Assembly (NCBI RefSeq): GCF_900103485.1
Contig: NZ_FNHW01000001.1
Location: forward strand, 1,771,418 to 1,835,417
Direction of reading: 5' to 3'
DNA from: Fictibacillus solisalsi
GTDB taxonomy: Bacteria > Bacillota > Bacilli > Bacillales > Fictibacillaceae
Length of the DNA: 64,000 bases
Positions 42,306 to 58,375 of the stretch are shown piece after piece (the stretch's first letter is position 1; each line of letters starts with the position of its first letter). The position numbers and the translations under genes are program-made. A model generated the notes under the pieces. It worked only from the letters and a program-made list of their open reading frames with translations, had not been told where the DNA came from and ran no database searches.

Positions 42306-43087
42306 AACATCATCACCCCTGCCGCGAGACCTGCCAGCATGCTCGAAATAAAATTGACTGTGTTGTTGTTAACCGAAGACCAGCCCTTGATTTGTTCGGT
42401 TGGAACCCCGCAATGGGTGTGTTCTTCAACTTCCGATCCGCATATAGAACAGCGAAAGCCAAGCTGTACCGAGCCTCCAATAATAGTATCGAGAACATTA
42501 CCGAGAAATCCTGCTAAAAATGTCAAAAACAAAACATAAATCGTCCATCTGCTTTCAAAAAACAGCAAAGCACCTGTAACACTGATCAAGAGCGAGCCCA
42601 ACGCAGCCGCTGTCAGACCAAGTGGAGAAACTGCTCCAGATATTCCTCGTTCCACCCGGCTTCTGCGCAAAATATGATATGGCTCACCTTTTGAAAGAAC
42701 ACCGACTTCTGATGCCCATGTATCAGCGGCCGCTTCTGCAAGACTGGCAATAAACAGGGCAAGCCAAAAAGGATGTGGAAAAAGAAGATAACCTCCTCCC
42801 GCAAGGAACGCAGCACCTCCGTTGGCAAAGACCTGTCCTGCATTTCTTCCCTTTGATTCAACCGACAATGTGCGCAGTTCCTTCTTTTTTTCTTTTCCCC
42901 ATTTGCTCAGTAATGATGAGCTGATAAAGAATAACAGCAATAAACCGAAGCCTTGATATCCAAAAGCCGCGCATACCACTACGCCAAGCCCCCAACTCGA
43001 GAAAGCACCATCGAGTGTCAGCATCCGAAGCTTATAAGCAATGGCGACAAACAGGCCGAGAACCACCATAAAAAAGGCAAAAACCAT
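42293..43087 (-). CDS. DUF92 (TMEM19-like) membrane protein
   Basis: The 264-residue protein has six or seven membrane helices and the DUF92 motifs SKGRNAGQVFANGG, AAADTWASEVGVLS and FLGNVLDTIIGGSVQ. Relatives include phytol kinase-like and TMEM19 proteins of unsettled function. A CxxC-type pair with His (CSICGSEVEEHTHCG) may bind zinc. ATG overlaps the yqgN stop as TGATG. Confidence 0.88.
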   Translation of the reverse strand: MVFAFFMVVLGLFVAIAYKLRMLTLDGAFSSWGLGVVVCAAFGYQGFGLLLLFFISSSLLSKWGKEKKKELRTLSVESKGRNAGQVFANGGAAFLAGGGYLLFPHPFWLALFIASLAEAAADTWASEVGVLSKGEPYHILRRSRVERGISGAVSPLGLTAAALGSLLISVTGALLFFESRWTIYVLFLTFLAGFLGNVLDTIIGGSVQLGFRCSICGSEVEEHTHCGVPTEQIKGWSSVNNNTVNFISSMLAGLAAGVMMFWLQ

Positions 43088-43659
43088 CACTTTCCGTCCT
43101 TCTTTACGCCTTTATCCGTAATAATCCACTCCACAGGTACATCAAACGATTCAACCGGAATACTGTTCATATACTGAAAGTCAAAGGCAAGTGAAACGGT
43201 TGTGCCATGGTAACCGGCGAGATACCGGTCATAAAAACCGCCCCCAAATCCAATGCGGTAACCATCGGGATTGAAAATCAATCCCGGAACAACCATAAGA
43301 TCCATATCCTCCGCCGGTGTAAGTTCAGTCATGCCGATAATTGGTTCGTAAAGATCCATGTACACGTTTTCAAGCTCCTGGAACGATGTAATCCGATGAA
43401 AATCCATTAGCCGTTCACTGACCGTGCTGCACTTTGGCACACTCACCTTTTTTTCATCATCCCATGCTTTTTGTATGATCTGTTTCGTATCCACTTCAAA
43501 CCCTCTAGAAACCGTAATTCCAATATGCTTTGCGTTCTTCCATACAGGCAAACTGAACAGTTGCTGTGCGATGTCTCCGCTTTTTCTTTTATGTATGGCA
43601 GGATCGAGTGAAAGGAGTTGTTCCTTCATCATTTTGCGCAATTGCTTTTTTGTTTCCAT
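43087..43659 (-). CDS. yqgN: 5-formyltetrahydrofolate cyclo-ligase
   Basis: The enzyme converts 5-formyl-THF to 5,10-methenyl-THF using ATP. The 190-residue protein has KKQLRKMMKEQL at the N-terminus, the folate-binding MDLMVVPGLIFN and the phosphate loop RIGFGGGFYDRYLA. It starts 103 bp after the rpmG terminator region and is coupled to the DUF92 gene and mobA. Confidence 0.95.
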   Translation of the reverse strand: METKKQLRKMMKEQLLSLDPAIHKRKSGDIAQQLFSLPVWKNAKHIGITVSRGFEVDTKQIIQKAWDDEKKVSVPKCSTVSERLMDFHRITSFQELENVYMDLYEPIIGMTELTPAEDMDLMVVPGLIFNPDGYRIGFGGGFYDRYLAGYHGTTVSLAFDFQYMNSIPVESFDVPVEWIITDKGVKKDGK

Positions 43660-43762: not shown

Positions 43763-43912
43763 TTACTTCGTTTCACGGTGCAATGTGTATCTTTTTAGTC
43801 GTGGGCTGTATTTTTTAAGCTCCAAACGCTCTGGGTTATTACGCTTGTTTTTCTTAGTGATATAGTTACGATCACCAGTCTCAGTGCAAGCAAGAGTGAT
43901 GTTTACACGCAT
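43763..43912 (-). CDS. rpmG: 50S ribosomal protein L33, single-cysteine form
   Basis: The translation [19 protein letters not shown] and [20 protein letters not shown] is unmistakably L33 (49 residues). Only one cysteine is present, so the protein lacks the two CxxC pairs of the zinc-binding form; a zinc-containing or zinc-free paralogue may exist elsewhere. GGAGGG precedes the ATG. It is monocistronic. Confidence 0.97.
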
Positions 43913-43995
43913 GTATTTTCCCTCCAAACCTTAACCATTACAAAAATGGTGTACTGCTTTGATTGATTTGTTTCCAAATTAATTCATACTTTAAT

Positions 43996-44031: not shown

Positions 44032-45999
44032 TTATCGAAGACGTTCATAAGCTTGCATGTAATCCACGACCACATCAGCAAACGTGGCGTGAGACCAGGT
44101 CAGCGGTGCTACTGAGAGCGGATCACCGGTAAAAGGATGCAGTTGTTCGGGAAGAACCCCACTCGTAAACGCATGATCAGCCACCCAATCAAGATAGCGA
44201 CGGCATTCCTGCAATTCCGATAAACGCTGTGCCGTATAGATTTTCCACTTTGCCAGCCAAAGGGTGCAGATAATCCATGGATTACCAGGAACTTTCTCCA
44301 CCTCATGGGTCTGCTGAAAATAATAGTCGTTAAAATAACGGGCAACACCGCCGACATCCGTTTTGATATAGAGCTCACGCTCAATCGCTTCCATGGTGGA
44401 ACAGATGCGCGGATCGTCAGGAGAAAACACCCCAAAGGCAAACAGGCCGTAAATGCTGCTTTCGATCGTATAATCTTTTTTGATTTCGCGGGTTTCTTCA
44501 TCAAGGTAGATTCCGCGCAGGAACCGGCCCGCCTCTTCATCATACAGATGCGTTTCAATCCCTTTTTTCACGCGCTCTGCACCCGTTTTATAACGGGCCG
44601 CCCGGTCATCCTCTCCAAATAAAAGAGCAAAATTATGTGCAGCCATCAAACCACCGTAAACACCCGCACATGTAAAGGAAAAAATGCCTCGTCTTTCTTC
44701 CCAAAGATCGTACGAAGGGTTTGGCAAATCCAATGCTGCATCCATGAATCCCAGTAAAAAGCGAGCTCCGGGTCTGACCAGCGACCGGTAAAGAGATTGT
44801 GCAAATTCAATGTCACCAGTCTCTTTATAATGCTCCCAGAATGCCCATAATACAAGAGCTGTTTCATCCTCCTGAATAGGCAGCTGCTCCTTACCGTTCT
44901 TCCCAATAGTTGGATGCCAACTCGAACCAATGGAGCCGTCCGGATTGTATTTATGATGCAGATAGCCTTCCTTTGTAAGGACATCGGAACACCGTCGGTA
45001 GAAGTTTTTCACCATTCCCTGGTAACCTGACTTGGCGATTGCCGCCGCAACCAGCGCACCGTCCCTTGGCCACATATAGCTGTAATGGTCCCTGTTATAC
45101 TGCTGGATATCAGAATCATTTGCAGCCATGATATAGCCATTCTCATTGGTCTGTGTCCGCACAATAAGAAGGCTTCGTTTATAGAGAGAAAGGATTTCAT
45201 CACTCAGGTCGGTTTCCGGTAAGTGAGACTTGTTTGCCCACCTTCGCCAGTAGATCAAAATTTTATCAATAGTTAAAGAAGGGCCGATTTCCTGGACATA
45301 GTCATTCAGGGCAACTACTTCATCACGGTTGCGGCCGATCGTCATCCAATAAAAGGCTTCAACCGTCTGCTCTCCGCCTACGGTATGTTCCACAGCAAAG
45401 GTACTGTCCACAGACCCCTGTGCAATAGGATTAATATGCAGGGATCCGTCCTCCGCATCCTTCCAGGTACCCTCTGCACTTTGAAACCGTTTAATACCGG
45501 TCGTATACTGCGAGATTCCGTTATTGCCAAAAAGGGCATTAAACAAAAAGTAGCGGTTCTTTTTATAGTGAACAATGGATTTTGAATCAGGAGCAAAATA
45601 TGCAGTGTCCCCGACTTCTGTTTCATAAATATTAAGATCTTGGTGAAAAAACAGCCGGATCTTTTTTTCATGAGGTGAGGTATTCGTTACTTTAATTCTT
45701 CGTACAAACATGTTTTCACGCTGATGAACTCCGTCCTCAAAAACGAGGCGGAGGCCCATCTGCTTATTTTCTGCTGTACAGCAGGTCACAAGAGAATCTT
45801 TATGATAATCATTGTGAATCGACCAAGATTCAGAGGAAAGCCAGGAGAATTGGCCGTCTGACCAAATCCCCACTCTGTTGGCATGTCCTTGTACGTGATT
45901 TTGTTGTCCGACATATGGGTAATAGATATCTCTGATCTGAAGATGCTGATCGATGTTAACGAGAATCTTGCCGTTTCCGGCCACAAGCTCCCTTGGCAT
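44032..45999 (-). CDS. Glycoside hydrolase family 15 (glucoamylase-like) protein
   Basis: The 655-residue protein has the N-terminal beta-sandwich of bacterial GH15 enzymes and an (alpha/alpha)6 barrel. Landmarks are YSYMWPRDGALVAAA, the general acid Glu in DLWEERRG, and the general base Glu in LPEQLHPFTGDPLSVAPLTWSH. Such enzymes release glucose or trim alpha-linked glucans; trehalose and dextran cleavage also occur in the family. There is no signal peptide, so it should act inside the cell. It is the last gene of a four-gene operon, 6 bp after the nucleotidyltransferase fusion, with no clear terminator behind it. Confidence 0.93.
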   Translation of the reverse strand: MPRELVAGNGKILVNIDQHLQIRDIYYPYVGQQNHVQGHANRVGIWSDGQFSWLSSESWSIHNDYHKDSLVTCCTAENKQMGLRLVFEDGVHQRENMFVRRIKVTNTSPHEKKIRLFFHQDLNIYETEVGDTAYFAPDSKSIVHYKKNRYFLFNALFGNNGISQYTTGIKRFQSAEGTWKDAEDGSLHINPIAQGSVDSTFAVEHTVGGEQTVEAFYWMTIGRNRDEVVALNDYVQEIGPSLTIDKILIYWRRWANKSHLPETDLSDEILSLYKRSLLIVRTQTNENGYIMAANDSDIQQYNRDHYSYMWPRDGALVAAAIAKSGYQGMVKNFYRRCSDVLTKEGYLHHKYNPDGSIGSSWHPTIGKNGKEQLPIQEDETALVLWAFWEHYKETGDIEFAQSLYRSLVRPGARFLLGFMDAALDLPNPSYDLWEERRGIFSFTCAGVYGGLMAAHNFALLFGEDDRAARYKTGAERVKKGIETHLYDEEAGRFLRGIYLDEETREIKKDYTIESSIYGLFAFGVFSPDDPRICSTMEAIERELYIKTDVGGVARYFNDYYFQQTHEVEKVPGNPWIICTLWLAKWKIYTAQRLSELQECRRYLDWVADHAFTSGVLPEQLHPFTGDPLSVAPLTWSHATFADVVVDYMQAYERLR

Positions 46000-46005
46000 A
46001 TTGGA

Positions 46006-48417
46006 TCAGACCTGCTGATACTGCCGGATTTTGTTGATAAATTCCGCTGCAGCTTCTTTCGCTTGATCCATATCCGATCCCTGGGAATAGACGGTAAAGA
46101 TCGGCTGCTCCACATCCGGCAGTATCAATGTCCATCCTCCCTGCGGATGAAAGACTTTAATCCCGTCAACCAGTTCTACATTGTTATCGCGGATATCTTC
46201 CATTAAGCGTCTCATGACTTTTCCTTTTTTATCCCACGGACAAGGTACATATTCTCTCAGCATATTTACATTCGGAAGTAGATCGACCAGTTCAGACAGC
46301 GAAATCTGCTGGGTCGACATCATTTCCAAAATGTGAATAAGCGCATACTGTGCATCGTATTGGAAGTTCATCACTCCACTGCCCACTTCCATGATCGACC
46401 GCGGATTCGCTTTTGTTCGGATGAGCCTTCCGTTCAGACGACCGGCCAGGCTGTCAAGATCGGATGATCCGTAAATTGGAATCGCCATTTCATTTTGTTT
46501 TCCTTCATAGAAGGTTACCAGAACATATAGGGAAAGCATTGTTTCTTCATCAAGCAGCTTTCCGGATTCTGTAATCAGGCTGAGTGTTTCTCCCGCTTCA
46601 CCAACCAGAATACCGAGATTGGCATTGGTCACCCGCACAAATGATGCCATTTCCTCTGCTCCCGTCTGGGAAGGCACGGTTAAAAATTCGCAGTCCAGTT
46701 TGTTGAAAAGAATCGGAATAAAGCTCAAATATGGCTGGTGGTTATAGTTTACGACAATTCGAAACTTGGAATTTCTGATGCGCTTTGTGTTCACCGTTTG
46801 AAGGAGCGCTTCGATATATTCCTCATTTTTGAAATTGTTGTATGTCCCCTTTCCGATCATGTCAAAGGCTGCACGCCGGTAATCTTCCTGCCAATAAGCG
46901 TTTTCAATCTTTCTCTCAAAGTCAGGGTGGATAGGAAGTCCTTTGTGGTCATAGAACTCAATAAACACCTGCTTCTCTCCGCCTCTGTTCGAGAACCGGA
47001 TGTACACACCGCCCTGGAGGTTCTCTTCTTCTATCGCAAACCGAACAACAGGTGCCACAGTTGGGCTTGTGTCGCATGTATTGATTCCGGAAGACAAAAG
47101 TCCCTGAATGAAGGCCCCTTTGATCAGCTCTGAAAAAGAATGGGAATCGCTTGCAATGGCAATGTGGCATCCGTGTGGAAGCACTGCTCCATAGGCTGAT
47201 GCAAGTCTTGCGATATAATCCGGTGTAATTTCCACGTTGGCAATACCGGAAACCCCGCGTCCGCCGAACAGCGATTTGGTAGCTTTGCGTCCCCAGATCA
47301 ATGAGGTATGAACCAGCGCTTCATCATAAATTTCTTTTTCCGGCCAGATTTTCACTTCCGGTTTTAAGGTGGAGCGTTTTCCGATTTTGCAGTGGTTACC
47401 CACAACAGCATGCTCATAAATGGTGGCTCCCTGTTCGACCATGATACCGTTGGCAAGTGTGGCACCTCTGAGCTCACACTCTGAACCCACATACACATCA
47501 TGCCAGAGGATGCTCTTTTTTAAGGATGCCTGGGAGGAGATCACGTTGTTTCGGCCAATAACGGAGTAGCTTTTCACATCTGCACCTGATCGGATAACCG
47601 CACCGTCTGCTATATGAACCGGGCGTTCCAGCTTTGCCCCTTCTTCAATGACCACATTGTTTCCAACCCAGATTCCTTTATCGATTTCGTGGCCCGAAAA
47701 TGGCAGATTAACCAGTCCGTCGAGCATGTCGCGGTGTGACTGGCGGTATTGCTGCAAGCTGCCGATATCGGACCAGTACCCTTCCGCAGGGAACCCGTAC
47801 AGCGGGCGTCCTTCTTTCATGAGAAGAGGGAACAGGTCTTTACTGAAATCGGTTTGTACGTCCTTCTCCATATAGTTGAAAATCTCCGGTTCAAGTACAT
47901 AAATTCCGGTGTTGACTGTATCACTGAAGACCTCGCTCCAGCTTGGTTTTTCAAGGAAACGGATGATTTCTCCATCCTGATTGGTCATAATAACGCCGTA
48001 TTCCAGCGGAGACTCCACCTGTTTCATAAAAATGGTCACAAGTGAATCCTTTTCAGCATGATAATTAATGCCTTTTGACAGATCAAAGTCAGTTAATGCA
48101 TCACCGCTGATCACAATAAAGCGCTCGTCCAAAAACTCTTCGGCATTCTTGATACTGCCCGCTGTTCCAAGTGGAGTGGTTTCCTCGAAATAATGGAGAT
48201 TCACTCCGAAATCACTGCCATCACCAAAATAATTTTTGATCGCTTCAGGCATATAGTGAAGTGTGACAGCAATATCAGTAATGCCGTATTTTTTAAGCAA
48301 TTCTATACTGTACTCCATAACAGGCTTATGAAGCAGCGGCACCATTGGTTTAGGTAAATTGCAAGTTAACGGACGAAGACGGGTTCCTTTTCCCCCAGCC
48401 ATTATTACACCTTTCAT
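46006..48417 (-). CDS. Nucleotidyltransferase fused to a degenerate phosphohexomutase-like domain
   Basis: Residues 1 to about 235 form a sugar-nucleotide pyrophosphorylase (MAGGKGTRLRPLT, LPKPMVPL, GTAGSIKNA, SGDALTDFD). Residues about 245-370 form a left-handed beta-helix of hexapeptide repeats. Residues about 375-803 resemble phosphoglucomutase/phosphomannomutase. In that part the phosphoserine loop (usually TASHNP) reads IRFSNRGGEK and the metal loop (usually DGDGDR) reads VGEAGE, so mutase activity is doubtful. The substrate may be glucose 1-phosphate or mannose 1-phosphate. It lies 14 bp after the GH57/GT4 gene. Confidence 0.92.
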   Translation of the reverse strand: MKGVIMAGGKGTRLRPLTCNLPKPMVPLLHKPVMEYSIELLKKYGITDIAVTLHYMPEAIKNYFGDGSDFGVNLHYFEETTPLGTAGSIKNAEEFLDERFIVISGDALTDFDLSKGINYHAEKDSLVTIFMKQVESPLEYGVIMTNQDGEIIRFLEKPSWSEVFSDTVNTGIYVLEPEIFNYMEKDVQTDFSKDLFPLLMKEGRPLYGFPAEGYWSDIGSLQQYRQSHRDMLDGLVNLPFSGHEIDKGIWVGNNVVIEEGAKLERPVHIADGAVIRSGADVKSYSVIGRNNVISSQASLKKSILWHDVYVGSECELRGATLANGIMVEQGATIYEHAVVGNHCKIGKRSTLKPEVKIWPEKEIYDEALVHTSLIWGRKATKSLFGGRGVSGIANVEITPDYIARLASAYGAVLPHGCHIAIASDSHSFSELIKGAFIQGLLSSGINTCDTSPTVAPVVRFAIEEENLQGGVYIRFSNRGGEKQVFIEFYDHKGLPIHPDFERKIENAYWQEDYRRAAFDMIGKGTYNNFKNEEYIEALLQTVNTKRIRNSKFRIVVNYNHQPYLSFIPILFNKLDCEFLTVPSQTGAEEMASFVRVTNANLGILVGEAGETLSLITESGKLLDEETMLSLYVLVTFYEGKQNEMAIPIYGSSDLDSLAGRLNGRLIRTKANPRSIMEVGSGVMNFQYDAQYALIHILEMMSTQQISLSELVDLLPNVNMLREYVPCPWDKKGKVMRRLMEDIRDNNVELVDGIKVFHPQGGWTLILPDVEQPIFTVYSQGSDMDQAKEAAAEFINKIRQYQQV

Positions 48418-48431
48418 TTATACACAGCCCC

Positions 48432-51209
48432 TTATACCGGATTTTTTTGTAAACATTGTTCATACAATGCGCTAGTTTGTTGAGCAATTTTATTCCAGTT
48501 AAAAACAGTTTCCGCTTCTCTTTTGCCGTTGCTGGCGAGAGTGCGCCTCAGATGTTCATTTTGAGCAAGCGTGAGGACTGCCCATGCTAGGCTTTCTGCA
48601 TTACCCGGATAAATTTTCAATCCGGTTTCTTCATGACGGACAATGTCTTTCAAGCCGCCAGTGTCTGAAACAACGGTTGCTTTTCCTGCAGCCATTCCCT
48701 CCAGTGCCACAATGCCAAAAGGTTCATACAAACTTGGAAACAACGCGATATCACATTCAGACAGCAGCCGGTTACGGTCGTCATCTGAGACAAAACCGCT
48801 GAAGGTGACAGTGCCTTCGAGTCCTTCCTGATGGACCCGGCTGCGATATTCATCGAGCATCGGTCCTTTTCCGGCAATGATAAATTTGATATTGTGATTT
48901 TGCTGCCGGATTAATTGAGCCGCATCAATAATGGTTTGAAATCCTTTTTCTTTTACGACACGGCCGACAGAAAACACAAGCACTTCATGCGATTCCTTAA
49001 ACCGGTAGCCATCGGTCACTTCTTCCGTTTGTATTAATTCAGGATCGACCCCGTTTGGAAGGACCGTGATCTTATCCTCCGGAACACTGAATACGGTCGC
49101 CACTTCATCTTTCATGTATGGGCTGCAAACAATCACTTCGCTCGCTTCATAACAAAGCTCCCATTCCTTCTGATTGATTTCGTATTGAAGCGCATTATGA
49201 ATGCCATTGTTTCGTCCATGTTCCGTTGCATGGATGGTGGCAATCAACGGAATGTTCAGTTCATGCTTCAGACCCTTGGCCGCTACACAGACGAGCCAGT
49301 CGTGCGCATGAATGCAGTCGAAGTTAATTTTCTTCGCCAATTCCCTTCCCTGGTCCGCTATAGCCAGATTCAAACTTCCTGTCCAATGGAAAAATTGATC
49401 CGTTTGTGGCTGATTGGATTGTACACGGTACACATGAATTCCCTGATTCACTTCGTAGGATGGATATCCATCCACATGACACGTGATAACGTGTACCTCC
49501 TGACCCTGTTTTACAAGCGTTTTGGCGAGATCGAATACGTGCCGGGCCAGTCCGCCGACAACCATTGGCGGGAACTCCCATGAAAGCATTAAAATTTTTA
49601 ATTTGTTTGTTTCAGAAATAGAGCTGTGATGGTGTTGGATATATTGGTCATGAGGAGTTTCAAAATAGCTGGTATCAATATCGTTTAAAAACGGAAAGTC
49701 CTGTTCAAAAGCTTCTATGGCTGCTGTGTCTTGAGGTGATTGATTTAACATTTCTCTAATGATATGGAAGCGTTCAATATGTGTGTTGAAACGCTCATTC
49801 GCATATTGTGCGGCCGTCTCATTGTCGACAATAAATGCCCAGTCTGAACTTGCGGCAAGCATCCATTCCCGGATCATCTGCTTGATGTAGCGTTTGGTAA
49901 CCGGCGTAAGCGGCGAATGGGTGGCGGCAGCTGTAATGATTTCTCTTTCGCATTTATGCAAATGGCGGTACATCCAGGCATTTTTTTCGTTCAACCAGAC
50001 CTCTCCGTATTCATTCCTGCCCCATGTTGAAAACGAGGCATGTACCGTTTGCAAGTCTTGATAATGACGGTTGATGAATGAATTCGGTGTTATCCATTCC
50101 ACCCTTCCCTTGCAGGCTTCCTGGACAGCGGAAATCCAGTCTGTTCCCTCATACCACCAGTGACCGAATAACTCTGCGTCAAAAGGTGCAGTAATCAAAT
50201 GCGGAGGAAAGCATTCCTCTTCTTTTTCGCCGAGCGTATGTTCCAGTGTTTGAACAAAATGCTCTGCATGCTTCTGTACTTTTCCTTCCGCCCATTCGCG
50301 AATATAAATTTGTTTTTGTTCAACAGGCCCGGTGATCCTGTGATACTTCAAACCTGTGTCAATCCTGATTCCTTCGGGGTGAATGTGAGGAAGGATGTAA
50401 TCAAGATCCCTGTTATAAGCAATGTCGCGGTAAAACTCCCGATAGTCGGGGTCTCCAGGGTATCCGTCGACTGAACTCCAGACTTTTCCTGATATTTCGC
50501 GGTTTCTTGGAAAGAGCGCGATTCCGTGCGGTGAGAATACGGGGGATCCAATACCTCTTGTCGCTCTTGGACTGCTGTTCAGGAGAGTTTGTTCATCTAC
50601 AAACGTATATCTTATGCCTTTTTGATGGAGCAGCTTATCAATGCCAGGAGTATATGCACATTCAGGCAGCCAAAAGCCCTTTGGCATTTCACCGAAGTAT
50701 TTCTTAAAGGTTTTGATCCCCATATCCACCTGGGCCTCCAGCGCTTCCTGGGTTTGAATATAAGGCAAAAAGGCATGAGTTGCTGCTGTTGTAAAGCATT
50801 CAACCGCCCCACGCTGGTGATGATACTTAAATCCAGCGAGCAAATTCTGATTCCATTTGAAGAATGTCTCGCGGATGTTTTCATATCGGCCGCTGTAAAA
50901 CCGAATCACTTCGGTTTCTTCTTGATCAAGGGATCGAAGCTTTTCTTTTTTGATTAAATGATCGATGCTGTCCAGATACTCCAGATATCTTCGTTGAAGC
51001 ACAGGGTCTGACAGCATCTCCATTACTGGGGGAGAAAAGGAAATACTCCACGTAAAACCTTCAGGCTGGCGGTCAAGCGCCCAAAGCAACGGAATGTAGG
51101 TTTCTGTCATTGCTTCAAATACCCACCGCTCTTCCAGGCGATTGGCTTCCTTGTGCTTAACATATGGAAGATGGGCATGCAGTATAAATGTGAAATATCC
51201 ACTTTTCAT
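48432..51209 (-). CDS. GH57 branching enzyme-GT4 glycosyltransferase fusion
   Basis: This 925-residue protein joins two enzymes. Residues 1 to about 525 are a GH57 alpha-glucan branching enzyme with its C-terminal helical domain: HAHLPYV, the nucleophile Glu in GFWLPECAYTPG, and the acid Asp in APFDAELFGHWWYEG. After a linker at about 525-545, residues about 545-925 are a GT-B glycosyltransferase of family 4: SWEFPPMVVGGLARHV, HAHDWLV, FSVGRVVKEKG, and LYEPFGIVALEGMAAG. The pair implies one protein that extends and branches an alpha-glucan. It follows the DUF4912 gene by 13 bp. Confidence 0.94.
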   Translation of the reverse strand: MKSGYFTFILHAHLPYVKHKEANRLEERWVFEAMTETYIPLLWALDRQPEGFTWSISFSPPVMEMLSDPVLQRRYLEYLDSIDHLIKKEKLRSLDQEETEVIRFYSGRYENIRETFFKWNQNLLAGFKYHHQRGAVECFTTAATHAFLPYIQTQEALEAQVDMGIKTFKKYFGEMPKGFWLPECAYTPGIDKLLHQKGIRYTFVDEQTLLNSSPRATRGIGSPVFSPHGIALFPRNREISGKVWSSVDGYPGDPDYREFYRDIAYNRDLDYILPHIHPEGIRIDTGLKYHRITGPVEQKQIYIREWAEGKVQKHAEHFVQTLEHTLGEKEEECFPPHLITAPFDAELFGHWWYEGTDWISAVQEACKGRVEWITPNSFINRHYQDLQTVHASFSTWGRNEYGEVWLNEKNAWMYRHLHKCEREIITAAATHSPLTPVTKRYIKQMIREWMLAASSDWAFIVDNETAAQYANERFNTHIERFHIIREMLNQSPQDTAAIEAFEQDFPFLNDIDTSYFETPHDQYIQHHHSSISETNKLKILMLSWEFPPMVVGGLARHVFDLAKTLVKQGQEVHVITCHVDGYPSYEVNQGIHVYRVQSNQPQTDQFFHWTGSLNLAIADQGRELAKKINFDCIHAHDWLVCVAAKGLKHELNIPLIATIHATEHGRNNGIHNALQYEINQKEWELCYEASEVIVCSPYMKDEVATVFSVPEDKITVLPNGVDPELIQTEEVTDGYRFKESHEVLVFSVGRVVKEKGFQTIIDAAQLIRQQNHNIKFIIAGKGPMLDEYRSRVHQEGLEGTVTFSGFVSDDDRNRLLSECDIALFPSLYEPFGIVALEGMAAGKATVVSDTGGLKDIVRHEETGLKIYPGNAESLAWAVLTLAQNEHLRRTLASNGKREAETVFNWNKIAQQTSALYEQCLQKNPV

Positions 51210-51222
51210 CGGTTAAAAGCTC

Positions 51223-51909
51223 CTATCTGATTTTTTGATAGTATGAATAGCTGCTGAAATTCTCCATCCACTCCGGTTCATATGCATTACCGTTTTTCCA
51301 ATTCAGCACGTTTTGTGTTCGATGGTCGTTCGCAACGTCTCGCGGGGTTTCAATAGGGTTTGATCTCAATACAGTAAAGAAGCTTCCATCGAACGTTTTG
51401 GTGCCAATGTCGACCACATACGTACGGTCTGGCTCCAAATGCTGCAAAAACCAATTGTTAGTCATTTCCGGAAGGTCAATTTCAAAGCTTCGATGAGAGT
51501 TATGTCCTTGGAAGATGATATCTGTAACATCGTAGATTTTCATCTTTTTGGGAAGGTTGTTCCAGCTGGTCCGGAAATGATGTTCTACCATTTGTCGCTT
51601 CATGGCTGAAATGCTCCAATAGACAAAAATACTCGTTGGAGACTGCACCATCGCAAATAGAGTATCTTCGTCAAATTCATACGGCATTACCCAATGAATC
51701 TTGGGCGGATCTACAATCATTTCACTCGGTTCAGCCGGTTTTTCCTGAACATTGCCTTCCTTTTTGCTGTTTGGCTCCGATGCTTTACCAGCTTCCTGAC
51801 GGTATTTGTTCCACCGGTATTGGACTTTGCCGATCGAGAGGTTCATCCTATCGGCAATCTGCTGAAGAGTCAGCCCTTTTTCCTTCATTTTGACAATTTC
51901 ATTAATCAT
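51223..51909 (-). CDS. HTH and DUF4912 domain protein, first gene of the glucan operon
   Basis: The N-terminus, MINEIVKMKEKGLTLQQIADRMNLSIGKVQYRWNKYR, is a helix-turn-helix; after a Glu/Pro/Lys linker the C-terminal 150 residues are a DUF4912 domain (TSIFVYWSISAMKR, SFEIDLPEMTNNWFLQHLEPDRTYVVDIG), which has an immunoglobulin or carbohydrate-binding-like appearance. The ATG with GGGGTG upstream gives 228 residues; earlier codons are not needed. It may sense glucan or sugar and regulate the operon, which is inference. Confidence 0.88.
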   Translation of the reverse strand: MINEIVKMKEKGLTLQQIADRMNLSIGKVQYRWNKYRQEAGKASEPNSKKEGNVQEKPAEPSEMIVDPPKIHWVMPYEFDEDTLFAMVQSPTSIFVYWSISAMKRQMVEHHFRTSWNNLPKKMKIYDVTDIIFQGHNSHRSFEIDLPEMTNNWFLQHLEPDRTYVVDIGTKTFDGSFFTVLRSNPIETPRDVANDHRTQNVLNWKNGNAYEPEWMENFSSYSYYQKIR

Positions 51910-51992
51910 TTTCTTCACCCCGGTTTTTTGTCTCCAATCGCCTGCCACTTCTACCAAAATACTTTTAAAAGCCTACCGAATTATTTGAAAAC

Positions 51993-52021: not shown

Positions 52022-52302
52022 TATACAGAATTTGTAGAATTTTGTTGGTTGCTTGTCCTGTCTAAGAAAATCAATAATGTAAATTTTTTGTAACCGCTTG
52101 AATTCACTTCATTCGACAAAATCAAGGGATAAATTGGCATAATTCTACAAGAGACGTGTCACCAGCTTCTTCATACTGGAAATAACGCAGAAATCCTCGT
52201 CGAAATACCGCAAAAAGTTTAACGATTTGGCGAAATATCTACATTTCAAAGGAATACTATGGTATAAAAAATAAGGGGCAGGTTAAATATGAGGAGGTTT
52301 AT

Positions 52303-52500
52303 ATGAATATCATTATTTTTTCCTTGTTGGCTTTAGGACTGATTCTTCTTGCCATCTCTTATCGAAAAGATAAAGGAAACAATCTGGAAGTACAGCTAGA
52401 GAATTTTTCAATACAAATTTTAAAAGAAATGTACCAGCTAAAAAAGAAGCTAAAGGTCATTGAAGATGCAATGCCAACGCAAAATAAATCTAAATACTAA
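52303..52500 (+). CDS. Small membrane-anchored coiled-coil protein, 65 residues
   Basis: One membrane helix (IIIFSLLALGLILLAIS) is followed by a predicted coiled coil with LENFSIQILKEMYQLKKKLKVIEDAM. GAGGAGG lies 5 bases before the ATG, giving good support. I do not recognise a family. It lies 18 bp upstream of the next gene and probably forms an operon with it. Confidence 0.75.
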   Translation: MNIIIFSLLALGLILLAISYRKDKGNNLEVQLENFSIQILKEMYQLKKKLKVIEDAMPTQNKSKY

Positions 52501-52518
52501 AATACTGGGGATTTGAGA

Positions 52519-52995
52519 ATGACAAATACAACACTACGAGGTTTCGCTGCGGGAATGATTATATCTTCCGGATTGATCGCAGGCGTATATTATTCACAAA
52601 CGCCACCCGAAAAGGAAGTAAAGGCCGAATTAAACGACAGCACAGTCAATACATATTTACATTCAAAGAACATGACAGCCATTACGACCGAAGAATTGCA
52701 GCGTCTGAAAGAAAACCGGGTGGCTGCGGCCGCTGAACCGCAAGGGCAGGAGAAGCCTGATGAAGGAAAACAAGAGAAAGAGAAACCAAAGGTTTATCAA
52801 GCGACCCTTCATGTGACAAGAGGTATGAGCACTGGAGAGGTTTGTAACTTTCTCGAAAATGAGAACATTATTAAAGACAGCAAGTCTTTCCTGAAATACT
52901 TGCGCAAAAACAAACTTGAAGGCCAAGTCCGATTTGGTACATTTAAGGTCAACAGCAGCATGGACTTTAAAAAACTCGCCGATGCCATCACATAA
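52519..52995 (+). CDS. MltG-related membrane-anchored protein (YqzC-like position)
   Basis: The 158-residue protein has an N-terminal anchor (GFAAGMIISSGLIAGVYY), a charged Lys/Glu/Gln/Pro linker at about residues 70-95, and a C-terminal domain (HVTRGMSTGEVCNFLENENIIKDSKSFLKYLRKN and GQVRFGTFKVNSSM) that resembles the LysM-like half of MltG. The catalytic transglycosylase part of MltG is absent. The position next to pst matches yqzC of B. subtilis. It may bind peptidoglycan. Confidence 0.78.
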   Translation: MTNTTLRGFAAGMIISSGLIAGVYYSQTPPEKEVKAELNDSTVNTYLHSKNMTAITTEELQRLKENRVAAAAEPQGQEKPDEGKQEKEKPKVYQATLHVTRGMSTGEVCNFLENENIIKDSKSFLKYLRKNKLEGQVRFGTFKVNSSMDFKKLADAIT

Positions 52996-53048: not shown

Positions 53049-53708
53049 CTATTCGTTTAAACCATAGCGTTTGCCTTTTACCAGGAAAATAATACTTTCA
53101 GCAATATTGGTGGCGTGGTCTGCTGTACGTTCAATATAACGGCATACAAACGACAGCTGTGTAATCTGAGCAAGAGATTCCGGATGCTTGGTCATCAGTT
53201 CCAAAAGCTCCCTGATGATTTTCCCATAGAGCTCATCAACGGAATCATCAGTATCAGCAAGATTCTTCGCCAATACAACATCTTCGTCCACATACGCTTT
53301 AATGGAATCGGAGAGCATGCCAATGGCAATCTCCGCCATTCGGGGCAGATCAACCAAAGGTTTAATCAGCGGCTTCTCTCCGATGCGAATGGTCGATTTA
53401 GCAATATTTACCGCAAAATCAGCCATCCGTTCCACATCGGAAGAGATTTTGATGGCGGCAATAATTCTCCGTAGGTCTGAGGCTACTGGTGCCTGCTTGG
53501 CGATCAGCAAAATGGCAGCGTCATTGATTTCATCCTCCAGTTGATTAATCCGCTGGTCATTCTCAATCACTTCAAGAGCTTTGTCTACATTCTGTTCTTT
53601 AAGAGCTTCAATTGATTCTTTTAATGCGTGCTCGGTAAGTTCTCCGATTTCCACAAGCATCGCCTTTAATTCGTTCAATTGAATCTGAAAGTTTTCCCGT
53701 ACAACCAT
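53049..53708 (-). CDS. phoU: Phosphate signalling and transport regulator PhoU
   Basis: The 219-residue, all-helical protein has two PhoU repeats with E/DxxxD metal-binding patterns (VERMADFAVNIAKS and IERTADHATNIAES). PhoU restrains the Pst transporter and the PhoR signal. It is the last gene of the pst operon, 22 bp after the second pstB. Confidence 0.96.
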   Translation of the reverse strand: MVVRENFQIQLNELKAMLVEIGELTEHALKESIEALKEQNVDKALEVIENDQRINQLEDEINDAAILLIAKQAPVASDLRRIIAAIKISSDVERMADFAVNIAKSTIRIGEKPLIKPLVDLPRMAEIAIGMLSDSIKAYVDEDVVLAKNLADTDDSVDELYGKIIRELLELMTKHPESLAQITQLSFVCRYIERTADHATNIAESIIFLVKGKRYGLNE

Positions 53709-58321: not shown

Positions 58322-58375
58322 ACAATAAGCGACCATTATTAATGCTGTTTGAACCTAATGTTAAGAGATTGTAAA
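58322..58375 (-). promoter_or_regulatory. PhoP-controlled pst promoter with four Pho half-sites
   Basis: On the minus strand TTTACA, TTAACA, TTCAAA and TTAATA start at exactly 11-base intervals (58375, 58364, 58353, 58342), the spacing of PhoP dimers in Bacillus. TATTGT at 58322-58327 is a plausible -10 element. This predicts phosphate-starvation induction of the whole pst-phoU operon. Confidence 0.8.

Follow-up and report, generated by a model that had tools for sequence, protein, structure and literature searches.

The window analysed here is the whole 64,000-nucleotide stretch of contig NZ_FNHW01000001.1 from Fictibacillus solisalsi. It carries four tightly packed genes with the domains of a route for synthesis and breakdown of an alpha-glucan, and it raises the question of what these genes do together and how they relate to the classical glg genes. 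The answer that we consider rather probable is that the operon is predicted to code for a self-contained intracellular alpha-glucan pathway of glycogen type, which would stand in for the classical glg genes in Fictibacillus and its kin. A literature search confined largely to open-access journals yielded no description of the cassette.

Organization of the Operon

The cassette has four minus-strand genes coding, in order, for a DUF4912 protein, a GH57-GT4 fusion, a nucleotidyltransferase-mutase (NTP-PGM) fusion and a GH15 hydrolase. The intergenic gaps are exactly 13, 14 and 6 bp, so that gene number, order, strand and spacing are as an earlier sequence-only reading of this DNA had given them. 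That reading placed the cassette between rpmG and pst. The downstream neighbour is indeed rpmG (43763..43927, minus strand; Pfam Ribosomal_L33), followed by the conserved flank at 43087..43659 (minus), recognized by Pfam and position, which we take to be yqgN coding for 5-formyl-THF cyclo-ligase. On the upstream side the conserved flank phoU (53049..53708, minus; Pfam PhoU) ends the pst operon, but a divergent gene in between had gone unmentioned. This conserved neighbour (52513..52995, plus) has a weak YceG-like Pfam match below the cut-off and is called sweC-like from its conserved position and PMC6705773. A 65-aa ORF (52303..52500, plus) occupies the sweD position and is assigned by position only.

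The best 15-residue mean hydropathy of the cassette proteins is 0.25-0.83, compared with 1.92 for the adjacent SweC-like protein. None has a hydrophobic amino terminus, in line with the proposed absence of signal peptides. Selection on the cassette domains is strongly purifying (dN/dS 0.01-0.14, 4 pairs). A PhoP-box scan gave a single imperfect repeat upstream of the operon (52078-52094); matches in the window number 6 against 3.9 expected by chance, and no PhoP control is claimed. A promoter scan returned 15 matches for 17.1 expected.

Predicted Activities of the Four Proteins

The first gene (51223..51909, minus) codes a protein of 228 aa from an ATG codon, while an alternative TTG start at 51957 would give 244 aa. 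It matches Pfam DUF4912 (108.8 bits, E 2.5e-31). Weak profile matches to response-regulator HTHs and to fibronectin point to a possible HTH in the amino terminus and a possible FN3-like domain in the carboxyl terminus; of the HTH-DUF4912 protein initially described, the DUF4912 domain is thus secured by Pfam and the HTH is weakly supported. Of the 98 loci presented below, most have DUF4912 next to GT4.

The GH57-GT4 fusion (48432..51209, minus; 925 aa) has a branching-enzyme part in residues 1-530 and a glucosyltransferase part in residues 531-925 (GH57 170 bits, BE_C 89 bits, Glycos_transf_1 149 bits). Alignment identifies E183 and D344, which we take to be the GH57 nucleophile and acid/base, respectively. 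The Glu and Asp of GH57 branching enzymes and the BE_C domain (E 2.2e-25) are all present, and the domain is predicted to be a branching enzyme creating alpha-1,6 linkages. The solved structure nearest to it is 2b5d, an 'alpha-amylase' (393 bits). This is the sole GH57 found in the genome, the weak Pfam match of a second candidate having turned out to be a GH38 alpha-mannosidase. The B. subtilis control also exceeds the GH57 Pfam cut-off, which may be a similar mannosidase match. A search of viral contigs, with a reach limited to close relatives, found no relative of the fusion and at that depth discards a viral origin.

The GT4 half is nearest to 6kih (Tll1590) and the archaeal-type GlgA structures 2bis/3fro (92-93 bits), followed by 6tvp (maltose-1-phosphate synthase, 82 bits), 5d00 (BshA, 79 bits) and 7qsg (inositol-phosphate glycosyltransferase, 78 bits). 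GT4 is a broad family, and with these different activities lying within about 15 bits, sequence does not decide for 'synthase'. The top NCBIfam subfamily, glgA_Coryne, scores 159 bits, under its cut-off of 302. The domain is a predicted alpha-glucan synthase with a putative glucan acceptor, and its nearest relatives use several acceptors. Its E-x7-E and GR..EKG motifs, presumably the active-site residues of this retaining GT-B enzyme, are kept in all 98 loci.

The third gene (46006..48417, minus; 803 aa) fuses a sugar-1-phosphate nucleotidyltransferase (residues 1-375; NTP_transferase 198 bits) to a phosphohexomutase-like domain (376-803; PGM_PMM_I 87 bits). The former is probably a UDP-glucose pyrophosphorylase. 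Its top solved relative is 8x7s, a UTP-glucose-1-phosphate uridylyltransferase (234 bits; runner-up 160) presumably of cyanobacterial origin and linked to CugP. It thus resembles the cyanobacterial-type (non-GalU) UDP-glucose pyrophosphorylases, differing from them in its fusion to a dead mutase-like domain. That domain looks catalytically dead, as had been proposed: the DGDADR and RxSGTEP loops are lost, and this protein retains Ser at the phosphoserine position. The metal (DGDxDR), phosphate (SGTEP) and serine (TASHNP) loops are absent from all 80 fusions (78 distinct), and an active phosphomutase is excluded on these motifs. Seven stand-alone mutase-like neighbours served as control; five have all three motifs, one only the metal loop and one, in locus L219, none. 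The L219 protein is of the same dead type, unfused.

The last gene (44032..45999, minus; 655 aa; Pfam GH15 100 bits, E 1.6e-28) codes a predicted glucoamylase-type hydrolase with an N-terminal domain (~1-255) and a catalytic domain (~270-640). Two Glu regions, which we assume to hold the catalytic residues, align with those of glucoamylase 1lf6 (WEER/LPEQ compared to WEEI/SEQ), and both motifs are found in 24 of the 25 long GH15 proteins of the order-level loci. The protein matches the TIGR01577 oligosaccharide amylase over its full length, but its 353 bits are far under the curated cut-off of 820.7.

Distribution and Genomic Position

Within one bacterial order, 98 loci have the cassette slot between pst/phoU/sweC and yqgN, both flanks being present in 90 and one flank in 8. 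The four-gene block with full-length GH15 occurs in 25 of 34 family genomes (12 loci including this one, plus 13). Genomes G267 and G270 were left out of the family cassette-locus set, and G270 is not among the 25. The complete set in the same order is also found at L243 and L245, from one other family of the class, and at L174; related gene sets are present in other Bacilli and Clostridia. Locus L202 has DUF4912, GH57-GT4 and GH15 and, one gene further on, a glycogen-debranching enzyme (GDE_C 440 bits). Such recurrence of the block across genomes is not due to chance. It is possible that GH15 alone was gained in this family.

The assertion that B. subtilis has unrelated genes in this slot is doubtful. 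The control search was positive for DUF4912 in B. subtilis, and at the slot of two Bacillus-named relatives, L163 and L175, DUF4912 is followed by GT4 and then by yqgN. According to the literature, YqgL overlaps the 5'-UTR of yqzDC (sweDC) and one GT-B family is named after YqgM.

Classical Glycogen Genes

The operon was originally thought to be separate from the classical glg genes, a view that fails in this genome, where no recognizable copies were found and a parallel pathway is rejected. Searches at E 1e-40 detected GlgA (TIGR02095) neither in the F. solisalsi genome nor in 33 of the 34 family genomes, and GlgP (PF00343) has no match at E 0.001 in any of the 34, this one included, with 12 of 14 control genomes positive. 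GlgC (TIGR02091) and GlgB (TIGR01515) are not found over cut-off in the F. solisalsi genome and exceed it in the family only in G270; 7 and 4 of the 14 control genomes, respectively, are over cut-off. The single family copies of GlgA, GlgB and GlgC (1/34 each) all lie on one G270 contig. Matches to GlgB and GlgC below cut-off, seen in 34/34 genomes, are other GH13 enzymes and nucleotidyltransferases, and the best such GlgC match in F. solisalsi is the NTP half of the cassette itself. In the order as a whole GlgA is found in 193 of 249 genomes.

Erosion of the Cassette in Relatives

The GH57 catalytic pair, called intact or lost by alignment, is kept in this locus and 36 others and lost in 61 of the 98. 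At least 6 losses are required, a parsimony minimum on a quick tree in which 40 forks are open (weak) and several branches are long. It was unexpected that the GT4 residues stay intact throughout. The GH57 domain that has lost the pair often persists as a pseudo-domain under purifying selection, with dN/dS of 0.15-0.31, compared to 0.04-0.12 for the attached GT4, in the 9 pairs (out of 11) for which dS could be measured. GH15 is often reduced to its N-terminal domain (GH15-N), and a count from non-overlapping ORFs finds such a protein retained at no fewer than 34 of the 98 loci. L059, L060, L068 and L076, scored 'none', have a GH15-like frame overlapping a neighbour, so that 34 is a minimum.

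No GlgA-negative genome is found among the 61 with lost GH57, against 11 of the 32 others (Fisher p 2e-6). The 94 GT4-positive genomes contributed 93 to this table and 90 to a tree-based test, G131 (167 bits) being left out. On the tree, with only 3 to 6 independent events, the association of GH57 loss with GlgA retention is not significant. That GH57 is lost only where GlgA exists is therefore a hint and not a rule. One of the 11 GlgA-negative genomes is only 62% complete.

A Putative Glycogen-Type Pathway

From the observed gene content, catalytic residues, conservation and absence of recognizable classical genes we infer the substrates, product, direction of flux and roles of the dead mutase and DUF4912. 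The nucleotidyltransferase would convert glucose-1-phosphate to an NDP-glucose, most likely UDP-glucose, and the apparently dead mutase fused to it may bind a sugar phosphate, tuning the enzyme or holding a complex together. GT4 would lengthen the alpha-1,4 chain, whose ends the fused GH57 would cut and re-attach as alpha-1,6 branches. GH15 would trim non-reducing ends to free glucose, replacing the missing glycogen phosphorylase, while DUF4912 may bind glucan and/or regulate the operon. Activation, extension, branching and trimming within one intracellular operon had been suggested before and agree with the catalytic residues present in GT4, GH57 and GH15. The glycogen-type interpretation rests on these residues, on a UDP-glucose pyrophosphorylase as best relative of the NTP half, on the missing classical genes, on purifying selection and on distant relatives with the same genes.

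Like GlgC-GlgA-GlgB-GlgP, the cassette would activate the sugar, elongate and branch an intracellular alpha-glucan and break it down again, but with a UDP-glucose pyrophosphorylase-like enzyme in place of GlgC, GT4 in place of GT5, GH57 in place of GH13, and GH15 hydrolysis in place of phosphorolysis. The glycogen metabolism of S. acidocaldarius also involves GH57 and a GH15 glucoamylase, and the role of archaeal GT4 genes beside GH57 is called unclear (Chem Rev, PMC11046441). In the cassette GT4 is fused to GH57; the passages of that article on the archaeal sets make no mention of DUF4912 or of a nucleotidyltransferase fused to a dead mutase.

The main alternative, which we consider unlikely, is that the operon makes no storage polymer but an alpha-glucan oligomer that is short or decorated, the head group of a glycolipid, or a glucan of the envelope or spore, with GH57 and GH15 setting the length of the product. 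The model for this is the mycobacterial pair Rv3031-Rv3032, two adjacent genes with methyl- and acyltransferase genes of the methylglucose lipopolysaccharide (MGLP) system nearby. Rv3031 (GH57) and Rv3032 (GT4) belong to one proposed pathway for oligomeric MGLP, with UDP- and ADP-glucose as the presumed donors of Rv3032 (PMC6629080, PMC4981310). Rv3032 is reported to contribute little, if anything, to bulk alpha-glucan, which also weighs against the glycogen interpretation, and a GT family making membrane glycolipids is described as YqgM-like. All 61 loci retaining GT4 without an intact GH57 pair are in GlgA-positive genomes, so the conserved core need not serve storage. The mycobacterial genes are separate, with no GH15 mentioned in the passages on them; the cassette has the two domains fused and includes GH15. 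Against the alternative, an intracellular glucoamylase suits turnover. No methyl- or acyltransferase gene is found among the immediate neighbours examined (pst, phoU, sweC-like, rpmG, yqgN), the only adjacent transport genes are pst, for phosphate, and the fullest form of the cassette occurs in a family where classical storage genes were not found.

Distinctly less probable is that GT4 was re-used in the eroded lineages for an unrelated glycan, with pseudo-GH57 and GH15-N as acceptor-binding adaptors, and that the complete form here may already share this function. The constraint on pseudo-GH57 and the retention of GH15-N would fit such adaptors, but GH57, GH15 and GT4 of this locus are themselves strongly constrained and have their catalytic residues. 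The inserted module suggested originally, taken as a recent horizontal acquisition, is scarcely credible: its absence from one same-genus species (G003) is all that speaks for it, against the shared phoU-yqgN slot across the order (both flanks in 90 of 98 loci), an order-level GT4 clade (support 99) and the lack of compositional anomaly (GC 0.457 in the cassette, 0.448 in the window), and synteny rules it out for this locus.

The glycogen-type pathway can be extended, quite tentatively, to an evolutionary scenario. Bacillota might have had an ancient route to glycogen that needed neither GlgA nor GlgC but used UDP-glucose and GT4-GH57 as synthase and brancher, under the control of the dead mutase acting as sensor of a sugar phosphate. 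Where Bacillales acquired or retained classical genes, the hydrolase-fold enzymes might several times have become glucan-binding pseudo-domains that still serve GT4, itself always intact, in some second role; the B. subtilis form of this would probably be YqgL-YqgM.

If the glycogen-type pathway is real, most members of this family of Bacillus relatives store sugar by a compact route without any classical glycogen gene, and surveys of presence or absence based on glgA would miscall them. Graded erosion at one fixed slot provides a natural series from enzyme to pseudoenzyme fused to a still intact transferase. The operon would also give a pointer to the function of DUF4912 and of the poorly studied yqgL and yqgM of B. 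subtilis.

Organization of the cassette and its upstream region

The four cassette genes lie on the minus strand of the window and code for a DUF4912 protein (51223-51909), a GH57-GT4 fusion (48432-51209), a nucleotidyltransferase-mutase-like fusion (46006-48417) and a GH15 protein (44032-45999). Their spacing of 13, 14 and 6 bp, put forward in the sequence-only reading, was confirmed and, in line with the absence of signal peptides stated there, none of the proteins has a hydrophobic amino terminus. The cassette is followed downstream by rpmG and yqgN, while a divergent SweC-like gene and then phoU/pst are localized upstream. No GH57 other than that of the cassette was detected in the genome, one further weak match being a GH38 mannosidase.

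Upstream of the operon, an imperfect TT.ACA repeat with 11-bp spacing (52078-52094) has a 3' half that is identical in all seven aligned sequences, the window included, and resembles half a PhoP box. A perfect TT.ACA pair with a neighbour is found at 58348-58375, matches to this repeat in the window being overall not above chance. The sweD position is occupied by an ORF of 65 amino acids (52303-52500). ORFs of 63-91 amino acids are found there at 12 loci from two family genera, and ORFs of at least 100 amino acids in 67 of the 71 other loci. The short candidates may lack the carboxyl-terminal HTH with which SweD is described in the available text of PMC6705773.

Full-length GH15 is encoded in 25/34 family genomes (6/7 in the window's genus; 18/18, 1/1 and 0/8 in the second, third and fourth genera, respectively) and is the last cassette gene in all 25. 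Neither GH57 nor GT4 of cassette type was found in G003, a genome of the window's genus. Fictibacillus is among the relatives of this group: the nucleotidyltransferase-mutase proteins of relatives G004 and G259 are identical to those from the named loci of Fictibacillus sp. FJAT-27399 and F. norfolkensis.

Conservation of the locus

The cassette occupies an ancestral locus of the order. Orthologues of the GT4 (E <= 1e-45) occur in 94/249 genomes and 35/105 genera, while GH57 (E <= 1e-30) is present in 33/249 genomes and DUF4912 in 75/249. Pst/phoU/sweC upstream and yqgN downstream bracket 90 of the 98 loci compared (97 plus that of the window), the remaining eight having one flank in view.

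A scan of named records, from which the best 80 of 588 relatives were taken, has phoU or yqgN in view at 18 of them, L180 included. The other 62, half of which (31) are on stretches shorter than 15 kb, belong mostly, as judged from their titles, to Clostridia, Alicyclobacillaceae and unclassified Bacillota. Of these 62, 30 show a GH57 (joined to GT4 in eight), 24 the nucleotidyltransferase-mutase fusion, 22 a DUF4912 match above 25 bits and three a full GH15, while 18 have no cassette partner in view. In the usual clostridial layout the nucleotidyltransferase-mutase fusion adjoins GT4, and GH57 and DUF4912 are encoded by the other strand. The full four-gene order is found outside the order in loci L243 and L245, from one family, and in L174; L244, of the same family as the first two, has this order minus a called DUF4912. 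Locus L202 carries the block without the nucleotidyltransferase, then a glycogen-debranching enzyme one gene further on.

The genes of this slot in B. subtilis had been considered unrelated to the cassette, which is doubtful. B. subtilis, used as a control in the DUF4912 search, is positive, and the Bacillus-named relatives L163 and L175 have DUF4912, GT4 and yqgN in the cassette slot. In the text available from the respective sources, YqgL is overlapped on the opposite strand by the yqzDC 5'-UTR (PMC3297567), yqzDC corresponds to sweDC (PMC6705773) and a glycosyltransferase family is named "YqgM-like" (PMC3901891). Taken together, yqgL-yqgM is thus probably an eroded form of the cassette.

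Catalytic residues and selection

The GT4 motifs E-x7-E and GR..EKG are kept in 98/98 loci. The GH57 nucleophile and acid/base pair (E183 and D344 in the window) is found in 37/98 and lost or missing in 61, of which L093 retains the nucleophile. A second sample, made up of the window together with named and class-level loci, retains the pair in 25/32 GH57 domains fused to GT4, the seven exceptions being L255 and the named Bacillaceae-type L176, L189, L205, L226, L227 and L235. Among the named and class-level GH57 without fusion to a full GT4 the pair is present in 26/27, the exception being a 164-residue fragment. Twelve of the 98 loci have a full-length GH15 and at least 34 only its amino-terminal domain, no GH15 being called in 52.

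Other arrangements were also observed. Loci L240-L242, from another family of the class, show the reverse erosion in the phoU-yqgN slot, with GH57 intact and a GT4 fragment of ~150-180 amino acids. L102-L107, L115, L116 and L188 code for GT4 proteins of 561-593 amino acids with DUF4912 matches in the same frame, forming DUF4912-GT4 fusions from which GH57 is missing. In the genus shared by L079, L080 and L092, the GH57-GT4 fusion is intact in two species but only GT4 is left in the third, where the domain may have been lost comparatively recently.

The order-level GT4 clade (support 99 in a quick tree of 133 rows) requires at least six changes between intact and lost GH57. Domains without the pair have dN/dS of 0.15-0.31 versus 0.04-0.12 for the attached GT4 (9/11 pairs with measurable rates), while in intact pairs (7/8 measurable) the values are 0.06-0.19 for GH57 and 0.04-0.29 for GT4, some of the pairs compared sharing a species. 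Constraint on the pseudo-GH57 has thus weakened without disappearing. Shorter GH57 remnants gave 0.29-0.53 (three pairs).

The strings DGDxDR, SGTEP and TASHNP are absent from the mutase-like half of all 80 fusions (78 distinct; 43 from the order, 26 named and 11 class-level). Of seven stand-alone mutase-like neighbours used as control, five have all three strings and one has just the metal loop, whereas L219, similar to the dead mutase type, has none. Despite the missing motifs, few parts of the operon are as strongly constrained as the mutase-like half of the fusions (dN/dS 0.01-0.02, four pairs).

Relation to classical glycogen genes

The cassette had been described as separate from the classical glg genes, a statement that fails for the window's genome since no recognisable classical genes are found there. 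GlgA (E 1e-40), GlgB and GlgC above cut-off are each found in 1/34 family genomes, the window's not among them, and glycogen phosphorylase in 0/34. All classical GlgA, GlgB and GlgC of the family are on contig C107 of genome G270, whose assembly has 5% contamination. Matches to GlgB and GlgC below cut-off occur in 34/34, the best for GlgC in the window's genome being the cassette's own nucleotidyltransferase. In contrast to the family, 193/249 genomes sampled across the order have GlgA. The GH57 pair is lost solely in GlgA-positive genomes (0/61 GlgA-negative versus 11/32 others), an association that is not significant after tree correction because there are only three to six independent events.

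Proposed pathway and product

The solved protein closest to the nucleotidyltransferase half is a UTP-glucose-1-phosphate uridylyltransferase (234 bits; next 160), making UDP-glucose the likely sugar donor. The GT4 matches archaeal-type GlgA, maltose-1-phosphate synthase, BshA and inositol-phosphate glycosyltransferase within ~15 bits, and its top NCBIfam subfamily, glgA_Coryne (159 bits), is below the cut-off of 302. The mycobacterial GT4 Rv3032 has a minor part in bulk glucan and is linked to oligomers (available text of PMC4981310), which counts against a glucan pathway, while Rv3031 is presented as uncharacterised in the text available from PMC6629080.

DUF4912 has only weak HTH and fibronectin-like profile matches (best fibronectin E 0.0014) and might be a glucan binder or regulator; the dead mutase could act as an allosteric sensor. 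The fused branching enzyme GH57 is related to 2b5d (393 bits), presumably T. maritima AmyC, and the GH15 glucoamylase has both catalytic Glu. With these two enzymes, the simplest candidate product, as judged from the encoded domains, is a branched alpha-1,4/1,6-glucan, which would be synthesised and digested in the cytoplasm.
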